A stretch of 64,000 nt of DNA from Ignavibacteriales bacterium (GTDB lineage: Bacteria > Bacteroidota > Ignavibacteria > Ignavibacteriales > Ignavibacteriaceae): assembly GCA_015709675.1 (NCBI GenBank), contig CP054182.1, positions 1,777,448 through 1,841,447 on the forward strand. The letters run 5' to 3'. Under the pieces are notes generated by a model. It saw only the letters and a program-made list of their open reading frames with translations, ran no database searches and had not been told where the DNA came from. The position numbers were made by a program, and so were the translations under genes. Positions 17,271 through 26,171 of this stretch are shown piece after piece (position 1 is the stretch's first letter; the number at the start of each line of letters is the position of its first letter).

Positions 17271-18149
17271 ATGAATAAAACCCTTCATAGAATTTATATA
17301 GCATCTTTTTTTGTTGCGGGAATTGCCTCACTCATCCTGCTTATTTGGTATGGTTATGATTATTACCGGCTTCCCCTCACTGAACGCCCGTTTTCTCCTG
17401 ATCACTCATCGCTTAAGCCGAGCGGCGTAGTGGGGCATGGACTGGGGATAATCGGAACTCTTATGATGGCACTCGGAGTATCAACGTATATGATCAGGAA
17501 AAGGGTTCGCTATTTCTATTCCTGGGGTTATCTGAAGCACTGGTTGGAGTTTCATATTTTTCTTTGTACCGTGGGCCCCATTTTTGTACTTTTTCATACC
17601 GCATTTAAATTCGGAGGTATCGTTGCCGTCAGTTTCTGGAGCATGACCGCCGTGGTGCTGAGCGGCTTTGCCGGAAGATATATATACGTGCAGATTCCGC
17701 GCTCAATCAGAGGAAATGAACTCTCGCTCGGAGAGATTGATGAGTACCGCCGCAAACTTGATGCCGATATTGAATCTACGCTATCAGGAAGCAATAATCT
17801 CGCATCCCGGCTGAAACTTCTTTTTGAAGGCGGCAGGGAAGGTTCCGCCGGTATCTGGTCAAGTCTTCTTCAGCCGGTAAAAGATTATTTTTTTATGAAG
17901 CGTCAGCTGAAGGAGTTAAAAGCGGAATTGCAGCATGTTACAGGTATCTCTCCTGCGGGAGGAAAAGAGCTCATCAGAACGGTAAAGCAGCGGTTTCAGC
18001 TTGAAAGAAGAAATCTTATCCTTAAACAGATGCAGCGGCTTTTCAGATACTGGCATATTTTTCATCTTCCGTTCGCGATTACGATGTTCGTTATTATGGT
18101 TATCCATGTGGCTGTTACCATCGCATTCGGATATAAATGGATTTTTTAA
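17271..18149 (+). CDS. Di-haem cytochrome b-like membrane protein
   Basis: A 292-residue protein with about five membrane segments (near residues 8-28, 52-74, 88-112, 115-138 and 264-288) and a soluble, charged loop of some 120 residues in between. Histidines inside segments are placed at 95 and 109 and again at 265 and 279. Each pair is 14 apart, the spacing used by cytochrome b proteins to bind two stacked b-haems between two helices. His56 is a further intramembrane candidate. I infer a quinone-linked electron carrier in the inner membrane. It opens a run of electron-transfer genes with overlapping or near-zero spacing. Not a standard NarI or bc1 subunit. Confidence 0.7.
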   Translation: MNKTLHRIYIASFFVAGIASLILLIWYGYDYYRLPLTERPFSPDHSSLKPSGVVGHGLGIIGTLMMALGVSTYMIRKRVRYFYSWGYLKHWLEFHIFLCTVGPIFVLFHTAFKFGGIVAVSFWSMTAVVLSGFAGRYIYVQIPRSIRGNELSLGEIDEYRRKLDADIESTLSGSNNLASRLKLLFEGGREGSAGIWSSLLQPVKDYFFMKRQLKELKAELQHVTGISPAGGKELIRTVKQRFQLERRNLILKQMQRLFRYWHIFHLPFAITMFVIMVIHVAVTIAFGYKWIF

Positions 18150-18162
18150 GAAAGGAAACACC

Positions 18163-18756
18163 ATGAAGTTCAAAACAGCTTATCTCTATCCGCTGCTGAT
18201 GCTTGTGCTCGGCGCGGGCGTTGTTCTCTACACTCAGCTTACCGGAGAAGAAAAGAATACTCCGGTAACACAATCCGGTATGCCCCAGGATGATATACAC
18301 AGCGCGCTTCCTCCCTCGGGAGATGCACCCTCAAAAGCAAATGTTAATGAAAACTACCTCAATATGGTTAAAGAACTGAAGGCGAAGATTGAGGCAAATC
18401 CTGCCGATACTCTGAGCATGAGGGAGCTGGCAGAACTTTATTACGCGGGGCACAAGGTTGAAGAAGCATTCGCTCTCTATAATGCGATTCTTGAAAAGAA
18501 TCCCAAAAGAACGGATATATTATTCGAGCTGACACAGTATTATTATGATAAGCAGAATTACGCAGAGGCCGAAAAGGTAACGCAGCGGATACTCTCTTAT
18601 GACAAGAATAATTTCAGAGCAATGTATAACCTCGGCGCGCTGATGGTGGCAAAAGGAGATAAAGAAGGGGGCAAGAAACAATGGCAGATGATTATTGAGA
18701 AATTTCCCGGTACTGAAGCGGCAAAACTGGCTGCGGAGAATCTCGGTAAAATCTGA
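18163..18756 (+). CDS. Membrane-anchored periplasmic TPR protein
   Basis: 197 residues from the ATG at 18163, which has 'aaaggaaac' upstream; the frame is open further up but that overlaps the cytochrome b gene. An N-terminal membrane segment 'YPLLMLVLGAGVVLY' is followed by a linker and three TPR-like repeats ('DTLSMRELAELYYAGHKVEE', 'DILFELTQYYYDKQNYAEAE', 'FRAMYNLGALMVAKGDKEGG'). It resembles the TPR part of CcmH/NrfG-type cytochrome c maturation factors, so a scaffold or assembly role for the multihaem proteins downstream is an inference. Its TGA shares a base with the next ATG. Confidence 0.75.
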   Translation: MKFKTAYLYPLLMLVLGAGVVLYTQLTGEEKNTPVTQSGMPQDDIHSALPPSGDAPSKANVNENYLNMVKELKAKIEANPADTLSMRELAELYYAGHKVEEAFALYNAILEKNPKRTDILFELTQYYYDKQNYAEAEKVTQRILSYDKNNFRAMYNLGALMVAKGDKEGGKKQWQMIIEKFPGTEAAKLAAENLGKI

Positions 18757-20087
18757 TGGAAGTTTTCCTTGAGGAGCTTGGGGCCTATCTGTTTGCCCTG
18801 CTGCTGATAGGGGGAGTACTCTTTTTCTATATACGCCGGCTCAGAAGCGTAAACAGGGAAACCGCCTCAAAAATCCTCAAGGCAAAAGAAACAGGACTAT
18901 ACGAACCGGTATCTCTTCACCCGTATGTGGATCATGATACCTGCATCGGAACCAGTGCATGCATTGATGCCTGTCCGGAGAAGGATATACTGGGGTTTTC
19001 CAGAGGGAAAGCGGTTACCGTTAATGCAAGCAGATGCGTGGGACATGGCGCTTGTTTTCATGCTTGTCCGGTGCAGGCAATCTCACTGCTGATTGGCACC
19101 GAAAAAAGGGGAGTTGAACTTCCGCATGTAAGCCAGGAATTCGAGACGAATATACCGATGCTATATATTGCGGGCGAACTCGGAGGCATGGGGCTGATTA
19201 AAAATGCCATCGAACAGGGGAAGCAGGCGATAGATTATCTCGCGAAGAAACTAAAAAAAGACCATCACACTGATGCAGATGTTATCATCGTTGGGGCAGG
19301 GCCTGCCGGCATTGGTGCTTCCCTTAATGCGGTAAAACACGGGCTCCGGTATCTGACGCTTGAGCAGGATACCATCGGGGGTACGGTATCAAGTTTCCCC
19401 CGTGCAAAACTTGTCATGACCTCTCCAATGGAACTTCCGCTTCTCGGTAAAGTAAAGTTCACAGAAACTTCTAAAACCGAACTGATATCTCTCTGGAAAG
19501 AACTCATCAGCAAATTCAGCATTAACATTCATGAGCAGGAAAAAGTTGAAGAAATAAAAAAGATTGATGATATTTTTCATGTCCGTACCAATAAACAGCA
19601 GTACCGTTCTTCGGCTGTGCTCTTAGCCATCGGCAGAAGGGGAACACCCCGCAAGATGGGTGTTCCGGGTGAGGAGCTCGAAAAGGTCTATTACCGTCTG
19701 CTTGAACCGGAACTGATACATGATCAGGATATTCTGGTGGTTGGCGGAGGGGACTCAGCTATTGAATCTGCTCTTCTTCTGGCAGACGAAGGAAACCGCG
19801 TTTCGCTTTCCTACCGCTCAGAATCATTCAGCCGGCTGAAACCTCAAAACGCTGAAAAAATTAAAAAAGCTTCTGAGACGGGCGCAGTTAAACTTCTGAT
19901 GAATTCATCAGTAACAGAAATCACAAAGGATGCAGCCACCCTTAAAGATAACGGAACTGGCACGGCCGAACAGATCAAAAATGACCTGGTCTATGTATTT
20001 ATCGGCGGTGAACTTCCGACTGCTTTCTTAGAGAAAATTGGTGTGCAGATCACAAAAAAATTCGGTGAGGCAATTTTAAAGCACTAA
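18756..20087 (+). CDS. Membrane-anchored ferredoxin-flavoprotein NAD(P)-linked oxidoreductase
   Basis: A 443-residue fusion. Residues 8-26 are a membrane segment. Residues 60-105 form a ferredoxin-like domain with two motifs, 'CIGTSACIDACP' (Cys63, 69, 73) and 'CVGHGACFHACP' (Cys94, 100, 104); in both, the usual second Cys is replaced (Thr66, His97). From about 173 comes a thioredoxin-reductase/YpdA-like flavoprotein with the FAD motif 'VGAGPAGIGA' and an NAD(P) motif 'VVGGGDSAIESALLL'. No redox CxxC of true thioredoxin reductase is present. It probably passes electrons between NAD(P)H and the neighbouring cytochromes; the direction is unknown. Confidence 0.8.
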   Translation: MEVFLEELGAYLFALLLIGGVLFFYIRRLRSVNRETASKILKAKETGLYEPVSLHPYVDHDTCIGTSACIDACPEKDILGFSRGKAVTVNASRCVGHGACFHACPVQAISLLIGTEKRGVELPHVSQEFETNIPMLYIAGELGGMGLIKNAIEQGKQAIDYLAKKLKKDHHTDADVIIVGAGPAGIGASLNAVKHGLRYLTLEQDTIGGTVSSFPRAKLVMTSPMELPLLGKVKFTETSKTELISLWKELISKFSINIHEQEKVEEIKKIDDIFHVRTNKQQYRSSAVLLAIGRRGTPRKMGVPGEELEKVYYRLLEPELIHDQDILVVGGGDSAIESALLLADEGNRVSLSYRSESFSRLKPQNAEKIKKASETGAVKLLMNSSVTEITKDAATLKDNGTGTAEQIKNDLVYVFIGGELPTAFLEKIGVQITKKFGEAILKH

Positions 20088-20140
20088 TTGTGTCCCTTTT
20101 CTTCCTATTTTAGCACTTCTTTAGAAAACACTCATTAACC

Positions 20141-21748
20141 ATTACGTTTCCGGACAGAAACATTAGCACAGGTTTCGTTACATTTTTTATTTTTCTTCTG
20201 TCTGCTTTTTTACTGACGGGCAGAATTGACGCTCAGATTTCACCTGGTGAACTCACAAAGGCTCACGCGGGTCTCGAAGGAATAAGCAACTGCACCAAAT
20301 GCCACGTTCTTGGTGAACAGGTGTATAATTCCAAATGTCTGGACTGCCATACCGAGGTGAAATCTCTCATTAACGCAGGCAGGGGTTATCATGCCTCCTC
20401 TGAAGTAAAAGGTAAAAACTGCTGGAACTGCCACAGTGAGCATCATGGCAGGGAGTTTCAGATAGTGCGCTTTGATGAAAAGAAATTTAACCATGATCTC
20501 ACCGGGTTCAAACTAACCGGGACACACAGCAAAGCAGAATGCAGTGACTGTCATAAAAGGGAGTATATATCTGATTCCAAACTAAAAAACCGGAAGAAAA
20601 CCTTTCTGGGGCTCAGTCGGAACTGCGTTTCATGTCATACGGATGCACATCAGGGAACGCTTGGCAAAGAGTGCCAGCAATGTCATACCACCACTGCATT
20701 TAAACCTGCTGAACTCTTCGACCACAATGAGTCGTCATTTAAGCTCACCGGAAAGCATCTTTCCGTTGAATGCAGCCACTGTCATAAGACGGAAACCAGA
20801 AACGGAAAACCTTTCCAGAAATTCAAGGGGCTTGCGTTTACAAACTGCTCTCCGTGTCATTCAGATCCCCATCAGGGAAGGTTCGGCGCTGACTGCCAGA
20901 AATGCCACACTACAGCTGATTTCCGCCAGGTAAAAACGGGCAGCTTTGACCACAATAAAACAAGATTTCCTCTACTTGGCAAACATCAGGCAGTTTCCTG
21001 CAACGATTGTCACAGCGGCGGTATATCCTCCAAACCGGAGTTTGCCTACTGCACCAGCTGCCATAAAGATGCTCACAACGGACAGTTTACCATTGACGGC
21101 AAGCTAAAGGATTGTGCTGCCTGCCACTCCGTTAACGGATATACACCCTCTCTTTTTACTCTTGAGCAGCATGCAGAAACATTCACGCTTACCGGCGCCC
21201 ATTTATCGGTTCCCTGTTTCAGCTGTCATAAGAAGGAAGAGCAGTGGGTCTTTAAGCCCCTTGGAAAGGATTGCTGGGGCTGCCATGAGAATGTTCACGG
21301 CAATGAAATCAGTCCGCAATACGGAGGATCTGCTTCCTGTCAGAACTGCCATTCAACACATCACTGGCAATTGGTCTCGTTTGATCATTCCTCAACAGGA
21401 TTTCTGCTTAAAGGAAAACATAGTAAAGCCCGATGCATGGACTGCCACAGCAGTAAAGATACCGTAAACAAGCACAGATTTGCATCACTTAACGGAGACT
21501 GCACGCAGTGCCATCAGGATATACATCGCGGTCAGTTTGCCGGCAGGGGTCCTGCTTCATGTGAAAACTGCCATGGGTTTGACTACTGGAAACCGGCTCT
21601 GTTCAACCATAACACCACCCGCTTCTCGCTTGAAGGGGCTCATGCAAAGGTGCCATGCAGTGAGTGCCATAAAACGATAACGGACGGGGATGTCTCGTAT
21701 ATACAATATAAACTTCAGGATTTCAAGTGCGCGGCCTGTCACAAATAA
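20141..21748 (+). CDS. Multihaem cytochrome c with 20 CXXCH motifs
   Basis: A periplasmic cytochrome. The frame contains 20 CXXCH motifs: 'CTKCH' at about 20291, then 19 more to the final 'CAACHK'. Spaced modules of the form 'FDHN.T.F.L.GKH....C.DCH' supply distal His ligands. The frame is open from 20114 and includes a clear signal peptide ('FVTFFIFLLSAFLLTG', then 'IDAQ'), yet it holds no ATG, GTG or TTG before a GTG at 20321, which would cut off the signal and the first haem site. I set the start at an ATT codon (20141); an ATT at 20162 or a sequence error is possible. It overlaps the next cytochrome gene by 22 bases. Confidence 0.85.
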   Translation: MTFPDRNISTGFVTFFIFLLSAFLLTGRIDAQISPGELTKAHAGLEGISNCTKCHVLGEQVYNSKCLDCHTEVKSLINAGRGYHASSEVKGKNCWNCHSEHHGREFQIVRFDEKKFNHDLTGFKLTGTHSKAECSDCHKREYISDSKLKNRKKTFLGLSRNCVSCHTDAHQGTLGKECQQCHTTTAFKPAELFDHNESSFKLTGKHLSVECSHCHKTETRNGKPFQKFKGLAFTNCSPCHSDPHQGRFGADCQKCHTTADFRQVKTGSFDHNKTRFPLLGKHQAVSCNDCHSGGISSKPEFAYCTSCHKDAHNGQFTIDGKLKDCAACHSVNGYTPSLFTLEQHAETFTLTGAHLSVPCFSCHKKEEQWVFKPLGKDCWGCHENVHGNEISPQYGGSASCQNCHSTHHWQLVSFDHSSTGFLLKGKHSKARCMDCHSSKDTVNKHRFASLNGDCTQCHQDIHRGQFAGRGPASCENCHGFDYWKPALFNHNTTRFSLEGAHAKVPCSECHKTITDGDVSYIQYKLQDFKCAACHK

Positions 21749-24546
21749 TTGCTTTACTGCTTCTTTTGATTACGGCAACTGCTGCCCAGTCACCCCACGG
21801 TGCGGGGCTGAAGGCAGACTGTGCTGACTGCCACACTTCGGCTTCGTGGAATAAACTTCTTAATCCCATGAAGTTTGATCATGGAAGCACTTCCTTTCCT
21901 CTATCAGGACAGCACACTGCCGCTGACTGCAGACAGTGCCACACTACTCTGGTTTTTGAAGCAGCCGCAACGGACTGCTTTACCTGTCATAAAGATGTTC
22001 ACAGCAATACAGTTGGCAATGACTGCATGCAGTGCCATACACCGCAAACCTGGCTGGTTACCGATGTGAAAAGCCTGCATGAGAAAACCCGTTTTCCACT
22101 GCTCGGCGCTCATCAGGATGCTGACTGCGGGCAGTGCCACACCGGCTATGTAAACCTTCATTTTGAAGTGATGCAGGCAGAGTGCTTCACCTGTCATAAG
22201 CAGGATTATCTTTCCGCGAATAATCCCAATCACGCATCATCAGGATTTTCAACCGACTGCACCGAATGCCACTCCGTTGCTGACCGTTCATGGAAAGGGG
22301 GAAGTTTTACGCATGACTTCTTCCCGCTGCTCGGAGGCCATAATCTGCCAAGCTGTTTTTCCTGCCATAACGGCGGACAATTTACAGGGCTGAGCGCGGA
22401 CTGCAAATCCTGCCACCTTGATGATTATACAGCTACGGTAAACCCGAATCACACTTCGTCGGGTTTCAGCACAGACTGTAAAAGCTGCCACAATATATAC
22501 GGCTGGCAGCCCGCCGCGTTTGACCACAATCAGACGGATTTCCCGTTAACGGGCAGGCATATATCCGTAAACTGCAGCAGCTGCCACACTTCCGGCTACG
22601 CAAATACGCCGGCTGACTGCAACAGCTGTCATAATGATGATTACCTGAATACATCAAATCCGAATCACGTTGCTGCAGGTTTCCCGATTGACTGCACGCA
22701 GTGCCACACCACAAACGGCTGGCAGCCGGCTGAGTTTGATCATGACGGACTCTATTTCCCTATATATAGCGGCAAGCACCGCAACGAATGGGCAAGCTGC
22801 TCTGACTGCCATACTCAGCCGTCCAACTATACCGTCTTTAGCTGCACTACCTGTCATGAACATAACCGCTCTGACATGGATCAGGAGCATCAGGGAATTC
22901 AGGGATATATCTATTCCAGCGATGCATGCCTGAGCTGCCATCCGGATGGTGAATCTGACGGAGCATTTAATCATGCTATATCACTATTCCCTCTGACAGG
23001 CGCTCATTCGACCGCAGACTGCTCAGGGTGCCACACGGCCGGATACACACAGCCGGTGAGCACATCATGCCAGCAGTGCCATCAGACTAAACTTCAGAAC
23101 GTATTTAACCCTGATCATCAGGCAGCGGGGCTTACTGCTGAGTGCTCTGACTGTCATACAACTTCCCTCTGGAAGCCATCACTCTATGACCATGCGGTAA
23201 CCGGTTTTACCTTAACAGGCGCTCATACCTCTGAGGATTGCAATTCCTGTCATGCGGCAGGATATACAAACGCGGTATCGGAATGCAACTCCTGTCATCT
23301 GGCGGATTTTAACGCGGCTTCAGACCCCAATCATATTGCAGCTAATTTCCCTCAGCAGTGTGAAACCTGCCATAGTACCGTTGCATGGACCCCCGCTTCA
23401 TTTGACCATGATGCTGAATATTTTCCCATATACTCCGGTGAGCATAACGGGGAGTGGAATAATTGTTCGGACTGCCACACGAATTCATCAAATTACGCAG
23501 TATTCAGCTGTATCGGGTGTCATGAACACAACCGGCAGGAGATGGACAGTGAGCATCAGGGAGTGAGCGGTTATGTATATATAAGCAGCGAGTGTTTTGC
23601 CTGCCATCCGGACGGGAAATCTGACGGAGCTTTTAATCATGCGGTTTCTAATTTCCCCCTCACGGGCACTCATACGGTTATTACCTGTAATCAGTGTCAT
23701 GCATCAGGTTACGCGGCAACCCCCACGGACTGCAACTCATGTCATAACACCGACTATACCGGAGCACTGAATCCTGATCATCAGAGCGCGGGTATACCAT
23801 CTTCATGTGAGACCTGCCATGATGCGAATGCCTGGATTCCATCTTCTTTCAGCCATGCATCAACACAGTTTGCGCTTACCGGCGCACACATCGGAAGGCA
23901 GTGTTCAGACTGTCACACTGGTTCTTTAACTGCCGCTTCAGGCCAATGTATATCATGCCATCAGACGGATTTCAGCGCTTCCTCAAATCCTGATCATGAG
24001 GTGCTTGCGCTCTCATCAGACTGCCAGACCTGTCATACAACAAACGCCGGCTGGTCACCCGCGCAGTTCCCTGATCATGACAATTATTTTCAGCTTCTGG
24101 GCAGGCATGCGCAAATCAGAAATAACTGCTCGGACTGTCACAACGGAAATTATGCTCAGACACCTAACACCTGCTACGGCTGTCATCAGAGTGATTTCAC
24201 CAGCGCGCAGAATCCGAATCATACCAGCGCCGGTTTCCCTCATGAGTGTGAAACATGCCATTCTCAGACTGCCTGGGAGCCTTCCACGTTTAACCACGAT
24301 ACGCAATATTTCCCGATATATAGCGGCAAGCACCGCAACGAGTGGACACAATGTTCGCAGTGCCATCAGAACGGAAGTAACTTTGCCATCTTCACCTGCA
24401 TCAGCTGCCATGAGCATAATCAGGCGGATATGGATGATGAACATGAGGGTGTGAACAATTATCAGTATAATAGCGCAGCATGCCTGAGCTGCCATCCTGA
24501 CGGTGAAGATCTTCTGCGGCTCCCGGAAACGAAAAAGGTGCACTGA
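21727..24546 (+). CDS. Giant multihaem cytochrome c with 37 CXXCH motifs
   Basis: A 939-residue secreted protein with a signal peptide ('IIALLLLLITATAAQ') from a GTG start inside the previous gene. I count 37 CXXCH motifs, one per 25 residues, and frequent 'NPNH..AGF' and 'FDH' histidines as sixth ligands. A module beginning 'YFPIYSGKHRNEW' and containing 'CHEHNR..MD.EHQG' and 'CHPDGESDGAFNH' occurs three times, near residues 341, 564 and 860. The first and third copies are nearly identical even in DNA. Likely an extended haem wire in the periplasm or at the cell surface. The following barrel gene starts right at its stop codon. Confidence 0.93.
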   Translation: MRGLSQIIALLLLLITATAAQSPHGAGLKADCADCHTSASWNKLLNPMKFDHGSTSFPLSGQHTAADCRQCHTTLVFEAAATDCFTCHKDVHSNTVGNDCMQCHTPQTWLVTDVKSLHEKTRFPLLGAHQDADCGQCHTGYVNLHFEVMQAECFTCHKQDYLSANNPNHASSGFSTDCTECHSVADRSWKGGSFTHDFFPLLGGHNLPSCFSCHNGGQFTGLSADCKSCHLDDYTATVNPNHTSSGFSTDCKSCHNIYGWQPAAFDHNQTDFPLTGRHISVNCSSCHTSGYANTPADCNSCHNDDYLNTSNPNHVAAGFPIDCTQCHTTNGWQPAEFDHDGLYFPIYSGKHRNEWASCSDCHTQPSNYTVFSCTTCHEHNRSDMDQEHQGIQGYIYSSDACLSCHPDGESDGAFNHAISLFPLTGAHSTADCSGCHTAGYTQPVSTSCQQCHQTKLQNVFNPDHQAAGLTAECSDCHTTSLWKPSLYDHAVTGFTLTGAHTSEDCNSCHAAGYTNAVSECNSCHLADFNAASDPNHIAANFPQQCETCHSTVAWTPASFDHDAEYFPIYSGEHNGEWNNCSDCHTNSSNYAVFSCIGCHEHNRQEMDSEHQGVSGYVYISSECFACHPDGKSDGAFNHAVSNFPLTGTHTVITCNQCHASGYAATPTDCNSCHNTDYTGALNPDHQSAGIPSSCETCHDANAWIPSSFSHASTQFALTGAHIGRQCSDCHTGSLTAASGQCISCHQTDFSASSNPDHEVLALSSDCQTCHTTNAGWSPAQFPDHDNYFQLLGRHAQIRNNCSDCHNGNYAQTPNTCYGCHQSDFTSAQNPNHTSAGFPHECETCHSQTAWEPSTFNHDTQYFPIYSGKHRNEWTQCSQCHQNGSNFAIFTCISCHEHNQADMDDEHEGVNNYQYNSAACLSCHPDGEDLLRLPETKKVH

Positions 24547-26171
24547 TGAGGAAAGTTATTCCGCTGAACAAATTCCTTTTTTTATTATGTATTGTCCCGT
24601 TTCTGCTGCAAACTTCTTTTGCGCAGACTCCTGAATGGCGCCAGGGCAAGGTTACCTATGTAACTTCACAGAACATTTATACGGAATTCAGCAATACAGA
24701 AGGTATTTCGGCGGGAGATACACTCTTCAGCCGCAACGGCAGTATATATACTCCTGCAGTTATCGTACAGTTTATTTCAACCCGCTCCGTGGCGGGGCCT
24801 TCCTTATCAGGGAGCCGGATAACAGCGGGGGATCTTCTCTTTGCGAAGGTACTTGTTGATGTTGTTGCTGATACCACAACTGCTGAGCCGGATACGACAG
24901 TTAAAACCGAGCAGGAGGCAGGTGTGATTAAAACAAAACCGCCGGTGCAGGATGTAAAAATCACACGCTCCGTTCTTAAGGGGAGAGCAGCCGTTCAGTC
25001 ATCAACAACGCTTGTAAACACAGGAACCGCTGATGACCAGCAGCGATGGAGATACACACTCTCGCTCACCTCTCAGGATGCGTATATACAAGGTCTTACG
25101 CTTGGCACCCATCTTAACTATGCCTACAGTGTAAAAGAATGGCAGCGCATCAGCAATGCTCCGCTGAACCGGCTGATACCCTATGATCTCTATGCATCCT
25201 ATGAGTCGGAAGAATATGGCAGATTTACCGCCGGAAGAAAAATCAGTAAGTGGTATCCTTCTCTCGGTGCAATAGACGGTGTGCAGTTTGAAAGCGGTAG
25301 TGATGCACTGCGTTATGGTGCCTTTGCAGGAGCAAGACCTTCAGCCATGCAGTATGGTTTTGACTTTAAACTGTTTCAGGGAGGCGTATTTGTCAGCCGC
25401 AGCGATACCATAGGCAAGGGGACTATGGAGAATACCATTTCTTTCATTCATCAGACGAACAGTTTTAACACCGACAGGCAGTTCGTTTCGCTGCTACATT
25501 ATAGTCAGTTCTTCCGATGGCTGTCATTCTTTGCCTCTGCAGAAGCAGATTTTTACAGACAAGTTCCAGGGCAGTCAGGCGGTACTCCCGAACTCACAAC
25601 ACTTTATATACAGGCGCGGATGCGGATTACAAAAGAACTTCAGGCAGGAGTTTCTTATGACGCACGGCGAAATCCGGTGTATTACTTTACTTTCAGAAAT
25701 CTGATTGACAGCAGTTTTTCCAATCCTCTCCGGGAAGGAACACGGATTCAGCTGAATTACCGTCCGCTTCCGTATCTCACTATGAATGCTACAGCCGGCT
25801 TCCGTTTCAGGCAGGGGGATGGCAAGACCTCGGTTAACTTTTCCGTTTACGGAGGATTATCAAAACTTCCATTTGTAAGGGGCAGTATGGTTTACTCTTT
25901 CGCCCGGAGCGAGGCATCATACTCAGTTTCCGATAATCACTCCCTGCTCTACAGGGATGAGGTTGGTCAGGATATTTCCTGGTCAGCCGGGGTAAGGATG
26001 TATTCCTACTCCTATGGCTCAGGCAGGCTGAAATTACGGCAGAATATGATTCATTCTGACCTGAACTGGATGTTTATGGAAAAAACGTTCCTCACCCTGA
26101 GCATTGAAGAAACCGTAAGTAAATCCCTTACCTCAGGCAGAATCTATCTGGATCTGACCCGCAGATTTTAG
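24546..26171 (+). CDS. Outer-membrane beta-barrel protein of the cytochrome cluster
   Basis: 541 residues: signal peptide ending 'LLQTSFAQ', an N-terminal domain of about 75 residues with an SH3-like pattern ('RQGKVTYVTSQNIYTEFSN', 'ISAGDTLF', 'ITAGDLLF'), a Thr/Lys-rich linker, then about 390 residues of amphipathic strands rich in aromatic residues. It ends in 'YLDLTRRF', with the terminal Phe of outer-membrane barrels. The gene starts on the last base of the 37-haem gene, so the two are coupled. By analogy with MtrB- and Omb-type porins it may sheathe a cytochrome through the outer membrane; there is no sequence similarity that I can claim. Confidence 0.75.
   Translation: MRKVIPLNKFLFLLCIVPFLLQTSFAQTPEWRQGKVTYVTSQNIYTEFSNTEGISAGDTLFSRNGSIYTPAVIVQFISTRSVAGPSLSGSRITAGDLLFAKVLVDVVADTTTAEPDTTVKTEQEAGVIKTKPPVQDVKITRSVLKGRAAVQSSTTLVNTGTADDQQRWRYTLSLTSQDAYIQGLTLGTHLNYAYSVKEWQRISNAPLNRLIPYDLYASYESEEYGRFTAGRKISKWYPSLGAIDGVQFESGSDALRYGAFAGARPSAMQYGFDFKLFQGGVFVSRSDTIGKGTMENTISFIHQTNSFNTDRQFVSLLHYSQFFRWLSFFASAEADFYRQVPGQSGGTPELTTLYIQARMRITKELQAGVSYDARRNPVYYFTFRNLIDSSFSNPLREGTRIQLNYRPLPYLTMNATAGFRFRQGDGKTSVNFSVYGGLSKLPFVRGSMVYSFARSEASYSVSDNHSLLYRDEVGQDISWSAGVRMYSYSYGSGRLKLRQNMIHSDLNWMFMEKTFLTLSIEETVSKSLTSGRIYLDLTRRF

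Follow-up and report, generated by a model that had tools for sequence, protein, structure and literature searches.

A conserved gene cluster in an Ignavibacteriales bacterium that may carry electrons from NAD(P)H across the cell envelope

The MtrCAB, PioAB and MtoAB systems each comprise an outer-membrane barrel encoded with multihaem c-type cytochromes, and conduits of this kind usually receive their electrons from a quinol oxidase that is separate from them. Here, we examined a six-gene cluster in a 64,000-nucleotide stretch of DNA (contig CP054182.1, positions 1,777,448 to 1,841,447; hereafter, the window) from an Ignavibacteriales bacterium. An earlier note on this DNA had proposed that the cluster could pass electrons from NAD(P)H or quinol to an outer-membrane conduit. 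The cluster encodes a membrane protein predicted to hold two b-type haems (CYB), a TPR protein, a protein with a ferredoxin domain and a FAD/NAD(P)H domain (FPR), two multihaem c-type cytochromes (MHA and MHB) and a predicted outer-membrane barrel (OMP). We found that it is a real conserved unit and not a chance arrangement, with a recurring core of five genes and an optional TPR gene. This conserved gene content supports the conduit proposed earlier, and the evidence argues for electron entry from NAD(P)H. We consider it rather probable that the cluster specifies a trans-envelope electron export line that is fed by NAD(P)H and does not start at a quinol dehydrogenase. As in MtrCAB, PioAB and MtoAB, the barrel is encoded with multihaem cytochromes. 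MHB passes the MtrC/MtrF domain II/IV model PF22113, which is not specific here (see below). The cluster differs from these systems in that OMP does not match PF11854 (MtrB/PioB porin), MHA and MHB contain 20 and 37 CXXCH motifs rather than ten, and CYB and FPR are additional.

Other described systems were compared as well. The Geobacter-type porin-cytochrome (Pcc) set OmbB-OmaB-OmcB and the pcc set of Ignavibacterium album (IALB_1837-1840), from the same bacterial group, likewise combine a barrel with multihaem cytochromes. In I. album, the set includes a periplasmic cytochrome with 14 haems, and no flavoprotein is mentioned in the part of its description used here (PMC4245776). Bacteroidetes_1, an uncharacterized gene cluster for extracellular electron transfer with matches in Bacteroidetes and Ignavibacteriae, encodes a beta-barrel and multihaem cytochromes; the excerpted text gives it seven genes, six of them for multihaem cytochromes, and mentions no flavoprotein, while a shared figure legend lists a color for b-type cytochromes (PMC8258643). 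One study reported "novel PCC types" (porin-cytochrome conduits) from humic-lake Bacteroidetes and, separately, an unbinned conduit cytochrome with 51 haems (PMC6344600). Our cluster may overlap with Bacteroidetes_1 or with the systems of this study, the comparison being one of partial published descriptions. The Desulfovibrio ferrophilus genes DFE_0448-0451 and DFE_0461-0465 likewise encode clustered multihaem cytochromes and were proposed to serve extracellular electron transfer. No description of a CYB-FPR-MHA-MHB-OMP set was found in the non-subscription literature that was searched. Judged from its sequences, the cluster has the defining gene content of a porin-cytochrome conduit, with a barrel (22 strands in a model) that is linked to multihaem cytochromes (in 69 of 75 loci, see below), but its barrel is not of the PF11854 kind and the I. 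album pcc parts differ.

Conservation and layout of the cluster

The CYB protein was searched in 395 genomes of the phylum, and an OMP profile was searched in 395 genomes drawn alike and bearing the same handles. CYB matches were found in 80 genomes, 39 of them strong over most of the length (in one, G140, with two stops) and 41 weak and mostly partial. The OMP profile matched 35 genomes, all within the 39 with a strong CYB match, and was without a match in the remaining 356. Because this search scored no more than three candidates in each genome, misses are possible. A strong CYB match without an OMP match was found in G357, G219, G340 and G380. The locus of G357 is cut at a contig end, and a profile made from more relatives detected a divergent barrel in G340 and G380 (loci L063 and L064) and likewise in G219 (L059).

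We then assembled 118 loci, 38 from these genomes and 80 from a scan of named genomes, with L074 and L075 left out. They gave 113 distinct loci, 75 of which were long, extending 9 kb or more past CYB. Among these 75, FPR was present in 73, MHA, MHB and OMP in 70 each, and the TPR gene in 31. FPR, MHA, MHB and OMP occurred together near CYB in 69. Of the 70 loci in which a barrel was labelled, all but one had a barrel open reading frame of at least 450 residues. Conservation of the barrel with the cytochromes, which the earlier note had put forward as a test of its proposal, was therefore borne out, both among the genomes (35 of 35 barrel genomes had a strong CYB match) and among the long loci. 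The unit of six genes that it described was confirmed for the five-gene core and not for the TPR gene, which, where present, may help assembly.

Six of the long loci lacked the joint set, among them L082 and L086, which have CYB, TPR and FPR only. In L037, the remaining genes lie about 20 kb away (L162), with MHA in an incomplete frame; L091 is cut by a contig end; and MHB and OMP of L113 lie upstream on the opposite strand. L058 (G140) contains a decayed cluster in the same place, in which CYB has two stops, a barrel remnant is left and the middle genes are gone; the remnants stand between conserved neighbors. FPR was placed after OMP in 14 of the 75 long loci, mostly divergent ones. The pairwise distances of CYB, FPR, MHA and OMP were correlated (r of 0.85 to 0.91 over 70 loci), a result that shared ancestry alone could produce.

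In the named-genome scan, at least 545 stretches encoded a CYB relative, and the best 80 of the 545 were kept and their neighbors checked. The titles of 79 of these 80 named Bacteroidota, Ignavibacteria, Chlorobiota or subgroups of them, and that of L097 read just "bacterium." Carriers outside these groups came from a plasmid collection only, and those that were read had distant relatives in a different gene setting.

Within the window, all six reading frames were confirmed in one direction, as the earlier note had stated (Table 1). So was its count of 57 c-haem sites, which is the sum of the CXXCH motifs in MHA (20) and MHB (37); the other four proteins have none. The overlapping or near-zero junctions it described held for four of the five. 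The CYB stop codon is separated from the ATG of the TPR gene by 13 nucleotides, the TPR-FPR and MHB-OMP pairs each overlap by 1 nucleotide (18756 and 24546), and MHA and MHB overlap by 22 nucleotides provided that MHB starts at GTG 21727. The FPR-MHA junction is looser, with the end of FPR at 20087 and the start of the signal-peptide-like stretch in MHA near 20162. Upstream of the run are a gene that we take to be diaminopimelate-epimerase-like and a gene for a protein of 98 residues; a PHP-domain gene lies downstream. The genome is a single 4.21-Mb contig, in which CYB and OMP each match one place. Outside the window, further Cytochrome_C7 matches were noted near 1278000, 1343000, 1916000, 2648000, 3408000, 3448000 and 3988000, one such frame having 743 residues.

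Table 1. Genes of the cluster (17271-26171), with positions counted from the first nucleotide of the window
Feature	Position	Strand	Description
CYB	17271..18149	+	292-residue membrane protein, predicted di-haem b-type
TPR protein	18163..18756	+	N-terminal membrane anchor (hydrophobic stretch 5-23); Pfam TPR_19, E 3.7e-14
FPR	18756..20087	+	N-terminal hydrophobic stretch, ferredoxin domain, FAD/NAD(P)H domain; Fer4 models, Pyr_redox_3, E 1.8e-48
MHA	~20162..21748	+	20 CXXCH, c7/c3-type; signal-peptide-like N terminus; Cytochrome_C7, E 3.4e-20
MHB	21727..24546	+	37 CXXCH; 12 triheme units of 68-78 residues plus one haem
OMP	24546..26171	+	predicted 22-strand outer-membrane barrel

CYB, FPR and their relatives in other gene settings

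CYB has hydropathy peaks at residues 8-26, 52-70, 92-134 (overlapping) and 268-286. The helices of an AlphaFold2 model (37 sequences; mean predicted local distance difference test score [pLDDT], 76.8) fit five transmembrane segments, with a loop of about 100 residues before the last one. Two pairs of histidines, H95/H109 and H265/H279, were invariant and are, from their spacing, candidate ligands of two b haems. Both H-x13-H pairs were found in 12 of 12 compared proteins (that of the window included), with relatives down to 21-25% identity. NADPH oxidase (NOX) and ferric reductase (FRD) membrane cores have histidine pairs about 13-14 residues apart on two helices. CYB resembles them in this placement of its two pairs and in being accompanied by a flavoprotein as the presumed donor, and differs in having no Pfam match and in that FPR is YpdA/thioredoxin reductase-like with a ferredoxin domain, not FNR-like. 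No Pfam or NCBIfam family matched CYB at E 0.01, including Ferric_reduct and the other b-type Pfam models, and its alignment profile gave one chance-level row against solved structures. A fold match, such as one to the six-helix FRD fold, was sought without a usable result: the best Foldseek hit was unrelated (E 0.31) and VIA-align against the PDB returned generic helical proteins (ABC transporters, F-BAR). We therefore make no fold claim for CYB.

The ferredoxin domain of FPR has two C-x5-C-x3-CP motifs, the second of which reads C-x2-H-x2-C-x3-CP. All six cysteines of the ferredoxin domain were invariant across 103 distinct sequences of FPR, and the second cysteine of the usual CxxCxxCxxxCP was replaced in the second motif by histidine (His97) in all 103. 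The corresponding residue of the first motif was Ser in 52, Thr in 33, Cys in 16, Ala in 1 and Val in 1; 16 sequences thus retain the usual four-cysteine first motif. Residues 175-435 have the fold of YpdA/Bdr-type proteins and thioredoxin reductases (7a76, E 5.8e-34). They differ from these enzymes in lacking a CxxC in the flavin domain, which was found in none of the 103 sequences (all 6 cysteines of the window FPR are in the ferredoxin domain), and in scoring below the NCBIfam cut-offs (175.8 versus 339.9 bits for YpdA and 104.6 versus 343.45 bits for thioredoxin reductase, among the 25 of 157 matches considered). FPR thus shares these families' folds for NAD(P)H and FAD but not their thiol chemistry, and would resemble a relay into Fe-S clusters.

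CYB relatives were also found in other gene settings. The plasmid collection contained 20 records with relatives at E 0.001 (24 at E 0.01), five of which were read. Plasmid pEMTOL02 of Emticicia oligotrophica (L164; NC_018749.1) carries the whole CYB-FPR-MHA-MHB-OMP set, with 23 and 40 CXXCH in MHA and MHB, an OMP profile match at E 4e-166, ccsA upstream and a GW-domain gene downstream. On plasmids of Alteromonas macleodii, Methylophaga pinxianii and a Variovorax sp., a distant CYB is flanked by an FNR-type FAD/NAD/2Fe-2S protein on one side and a cytochrome with 7 CXXCH on the other, and the Rhizorhabdus wittichii plasmid record names a FAD-binding oxidoreductase, an iron reductase and a cytochrome c3 family protein. 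The flavoprotein/CYB-like/cytochrome c3 units of these proteobacterial plasmids (L165-L168) lie amid copper, mercury or other heavy-metal genes; one unit adjoins a hydrogenase set. No match to the OMP or FPR profile was found in these stretches, whose other barrels and hypothetical proteins were not examined. L163 and L074 each have a distant CYB with multihaem genes in its vicinity, accompanied in L163 by an FHA-Pyr_redox-Fer2 and a cNMP-Fer4 protein and in L074 by an FHA-Pyr_redox protein; this arrangement is perhaps a signal-gated version. Short CYB relatives (190-201 residues; L158-L161 and L036:1131-2617) directly precede cytochromes with 10-18 CXXCH, and both H-x13-H pairs were present in the four that were tested. 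By eye, genes near those of L158, L159 and L161 resemble sensor kinases or regulators. Thus, one b-type family and multihaem cytochromes recur beside flavoproteins of different families.

The multihaem cytochromes and the barrel

The haem number of MHA was nearly fixed. Among 94 distinct MHA-like open reading frames, 84 had 20 haems, 5 had 23 and 5 were shorter pieces. No in-frame ATG, GTG or TTG was found ahead of the first haem motif of the window MHA (20088-20330). Because the first in-frame GTG (20321) falls after the first CXXCH, the count of 20 requires another kind of start, for which ATT 20162 is one candidate. Similarly, 12 of 63 distinct MHA reading frames have no ATG, GTG or TTG in the range needed by a signal peptide. 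The missing start codon may reflect a non-standard start, translational coupling to FPR or a sequence error. An argument for ATT as a conserved start, built on an apparent Shine-Dalgarno sequence in relatives, was dropped because that sequence proved to be the coding end of FPR (FGEAILKH). MHA scored 24.0 bits with PF22113, under the cut-off of 30. Both MHA and MHB matched the Cytochrome_C7 and c3 models of Pfam, and neither matched a solved structure at E 0.001.

The 12 units of MHB are 24-64% alike, with haem spacings of about 32, 15 and 25 residues. MHB matched Cytochrome_C7 (PF14522) over 6 stretches (E 6.3e-38; 128.9 bits) and passed the triheme domain model TIGR04257 (41.1 bits versus a cut-off of 40), the only NCBIfam model above its cut-off among the matches considered for the six proteins. 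It also passed PF22113 (68.2 versus 30 bits). We did not take MHB as an MtrC member, because Cytochrome_C7 scored higher and the 7-haem cytochrome of a plasmid passed PF22113 as well (33.4 bits). The triheme units are c7-like, as in the Geobacter c7 polymers of the GSU1996/GSU2210 kind (TIGR04257); GSU1996 has 12 haems, whereas relatives of MHB have up to 64 CXXCH and are in an operon-like run with a barrel.

Unlike that of MHA, the haem number of MHB varied. In 85 distinct MHB-like open reading frames (E <1e-30; second copies counted, frames that touch the edge of a contig or stretch excluded), 9-64 haems were counted, a number of the form 3n+1 in 67, 3n in 13 and 3n+2 in 5. A second MHB-like gene, with 34 CXXCH, follows the barrel at L036:3076-5652. 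G184 and G369 belong to one genus. Their MHA proteins both have 20 haems and are 97.9% identical, and FPR, CYB and OMP are 97.6%, 91% and 93% identical, respectively, whereas MHB has 43 haems in the former and 31 in the latter. MHB therefore appears to gain and lose triheme units while the proteins encoded with it hardly change. The dodecahaem GSU1996 is about 12 nm long, giving about 3 nm per triheme unit. The 12 units of MHB would thus span about 36 nm, which exceeds a typical periplasm and suggested to us that such a wire might extend out of the cell. MHB may accordingly act as a wire of triheme units located in or beyond the barrel.

OMP was modelled with AlphaFold2 (35 sequences; mean pLDDT, 81.1) as a barrel of 22 strands (residues 143-540, ending in Phe), preceded by a small N-terminal beta domain (residues 29-103). 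Its structural matches were OprD-type porins, TonB-dependent receptors and ushers, the best being the OprD-type porin 4frt (Z score, 18.6; root-mean-square deviation, 4.9 over 278 residues). On this model, the matches point to a barrel and not to a particular function. No Pfam or NCBIfam family was matched by OMP at E 0.01, no PF11854 match was found anywhere in its own genome, and its alignment profile gave one chance-level row against solved structures.

Proposed electron path and its alternatives

In the path that we favor, FPR would sit on the cytoplasmic side of the inner membrane, oxidize NAD(P)H via its FAD and hand electrons one at a time to CYB by way of two atypical Fe-S clusters. 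By the positive-inside rule, both FPR and the long loop of CYB would be cytoplasmic. Two b haems stacked within CYB, which has H95/H109 on one helix and H265/H279 on another, would then conduct the electrons through this membrane, as happens in ferric reductases and NADPH oxidases. In the periplasm, the 20-haem MHA would accept the electrons, and MHB together with the 22-strand barrel would carry them over the outer membrane to an extracellular acceptor, for which minerals, humics, a partner or an electrode are candidates. We infer the electron direction, the topology, the haem content of CYB, the location of MHB and the acceptor from the genes and their arrangement. Our preference for NAD(P)H over quinol has mainly a genomic basis: distant CYB relatives recur beside different families of NAD(P)H flavoproteins.

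Several observations weigh against this path. CYB resembles ferric reductases in the spacing of its histidines only, and it may contain a quinone site. CYB, TPR and FPR are kept in L082 and L086, with no cytochromes nearby. In all four of L158-L161, the FPR profile matched nothing within about 10 kb, other flavoprotein families not having been searched; thus, an FPR is not necessarily the donor of every CYB-like protein. The N terminus of MHB is signal-peptide-like as read from its sequence and has no lipobox cysteine, so MHB may not be anchored at the surface, and repeat collapse in draft assemblies could have changed some MHB lengths. MtrB has 26 strands, compared with the 22 modelled in OMP. 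Finally, use in anaerobic respiration is not assured, because E. oligotrophica, whose plasmid carries the complete set, is described as an aerobe.

The alternative that fared best is a conduit fed by quinol, in which CYB would oxidize menaquinol, FPR would be regulatory, an alternative input or a quinone reducer, and the remaining genes would form a porin-cytochrome conduit. The b haems of CYB would fit a quinol site as well, and the short relatives of L158-L161 have no adjoining FPR-profile match. In addition, known conduits are fed by the quinol oxidases CymA, CbcL and ImcH (PMC6295460). However, NAD(P)H flavoproteins of different families lie beside distant CYB proteins in the six other settings that were read (L163, L074 and four plasmids), and FPR is present in nearly all of the long loci (73 of 75). 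We therefore regard feeding by quinol as unlikely.

It is still less likely that electrons flow inward, from a donor outside the cell, for example Fe(II), which the line would oxidize. The full copy on a plasmid of Emticicia, which is described as an aerobe, would suit this flow. So would the suggestion, in the humic-lake study, that the PioAB and MtoAB sets oxidize Fe(II) (PMC6344600). Yet no terminal oxidase was recognized by Pfam among the six genes. Moreover, the cytoplasmic end is a NAD(P)H/FAD protein, and the reduction of NAD(P)+ by Fe(II) would be steeply uphill in redox potential. Just as improbable is the reduction of a soluble substrate in the periplasm or at the surface (detoxification of a metal, selenite or peroxide) with the barrel as an ordinary pore: related flavoprotein-CYB-c3 units do lie among heavy-metal genes on plasmids, but those stretches have no match to the OMP profile, whereas the barrel here goes with the cluster, and Pfam and NCBIfam showed none of the six genes to encode a known reductase subunit. 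The earlier note had also considered a match to a characterized nitrite or sulfur-compound reductase, and no part of the cluster exceeded the cut-off of a nitrite, sulfur or dimethyl sulfoxide reductase model among the NCBIfam matches considered (for example, DmsE, 39.1 versus 192.2 bits).

The favored export of electrons from NAD(P)H leads to a broader and more tentative proposal, to which we give somewhat less than even weight. In it, the cluster would be a self-contained NAD(P)H line that bypasses quinones, occurring across Bacteroidota and on at least one plasmid, with CYB repeatedly joined to unrelated flavoproteins and with a wire tuned in triheme steps that in some species reaches past the cell surface. 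One gene block apparently covers the entire route from NAD(P)H to the cell exterior, which could therefore be moved or deleted as a unit. The fixed haem count of MHA next to the variable counts of MHB provides a natural series for the effect of wire length, and a named plasmid carrier exists. If the proposed path is correct, fermenting or respiring Bacteroidota could dump electrons straight from NAD(P)H, and the at least 545 stretches with a CYB relative would possibly represent a large overlooked route of electron exchange in sediments, lakes and bioreactors.

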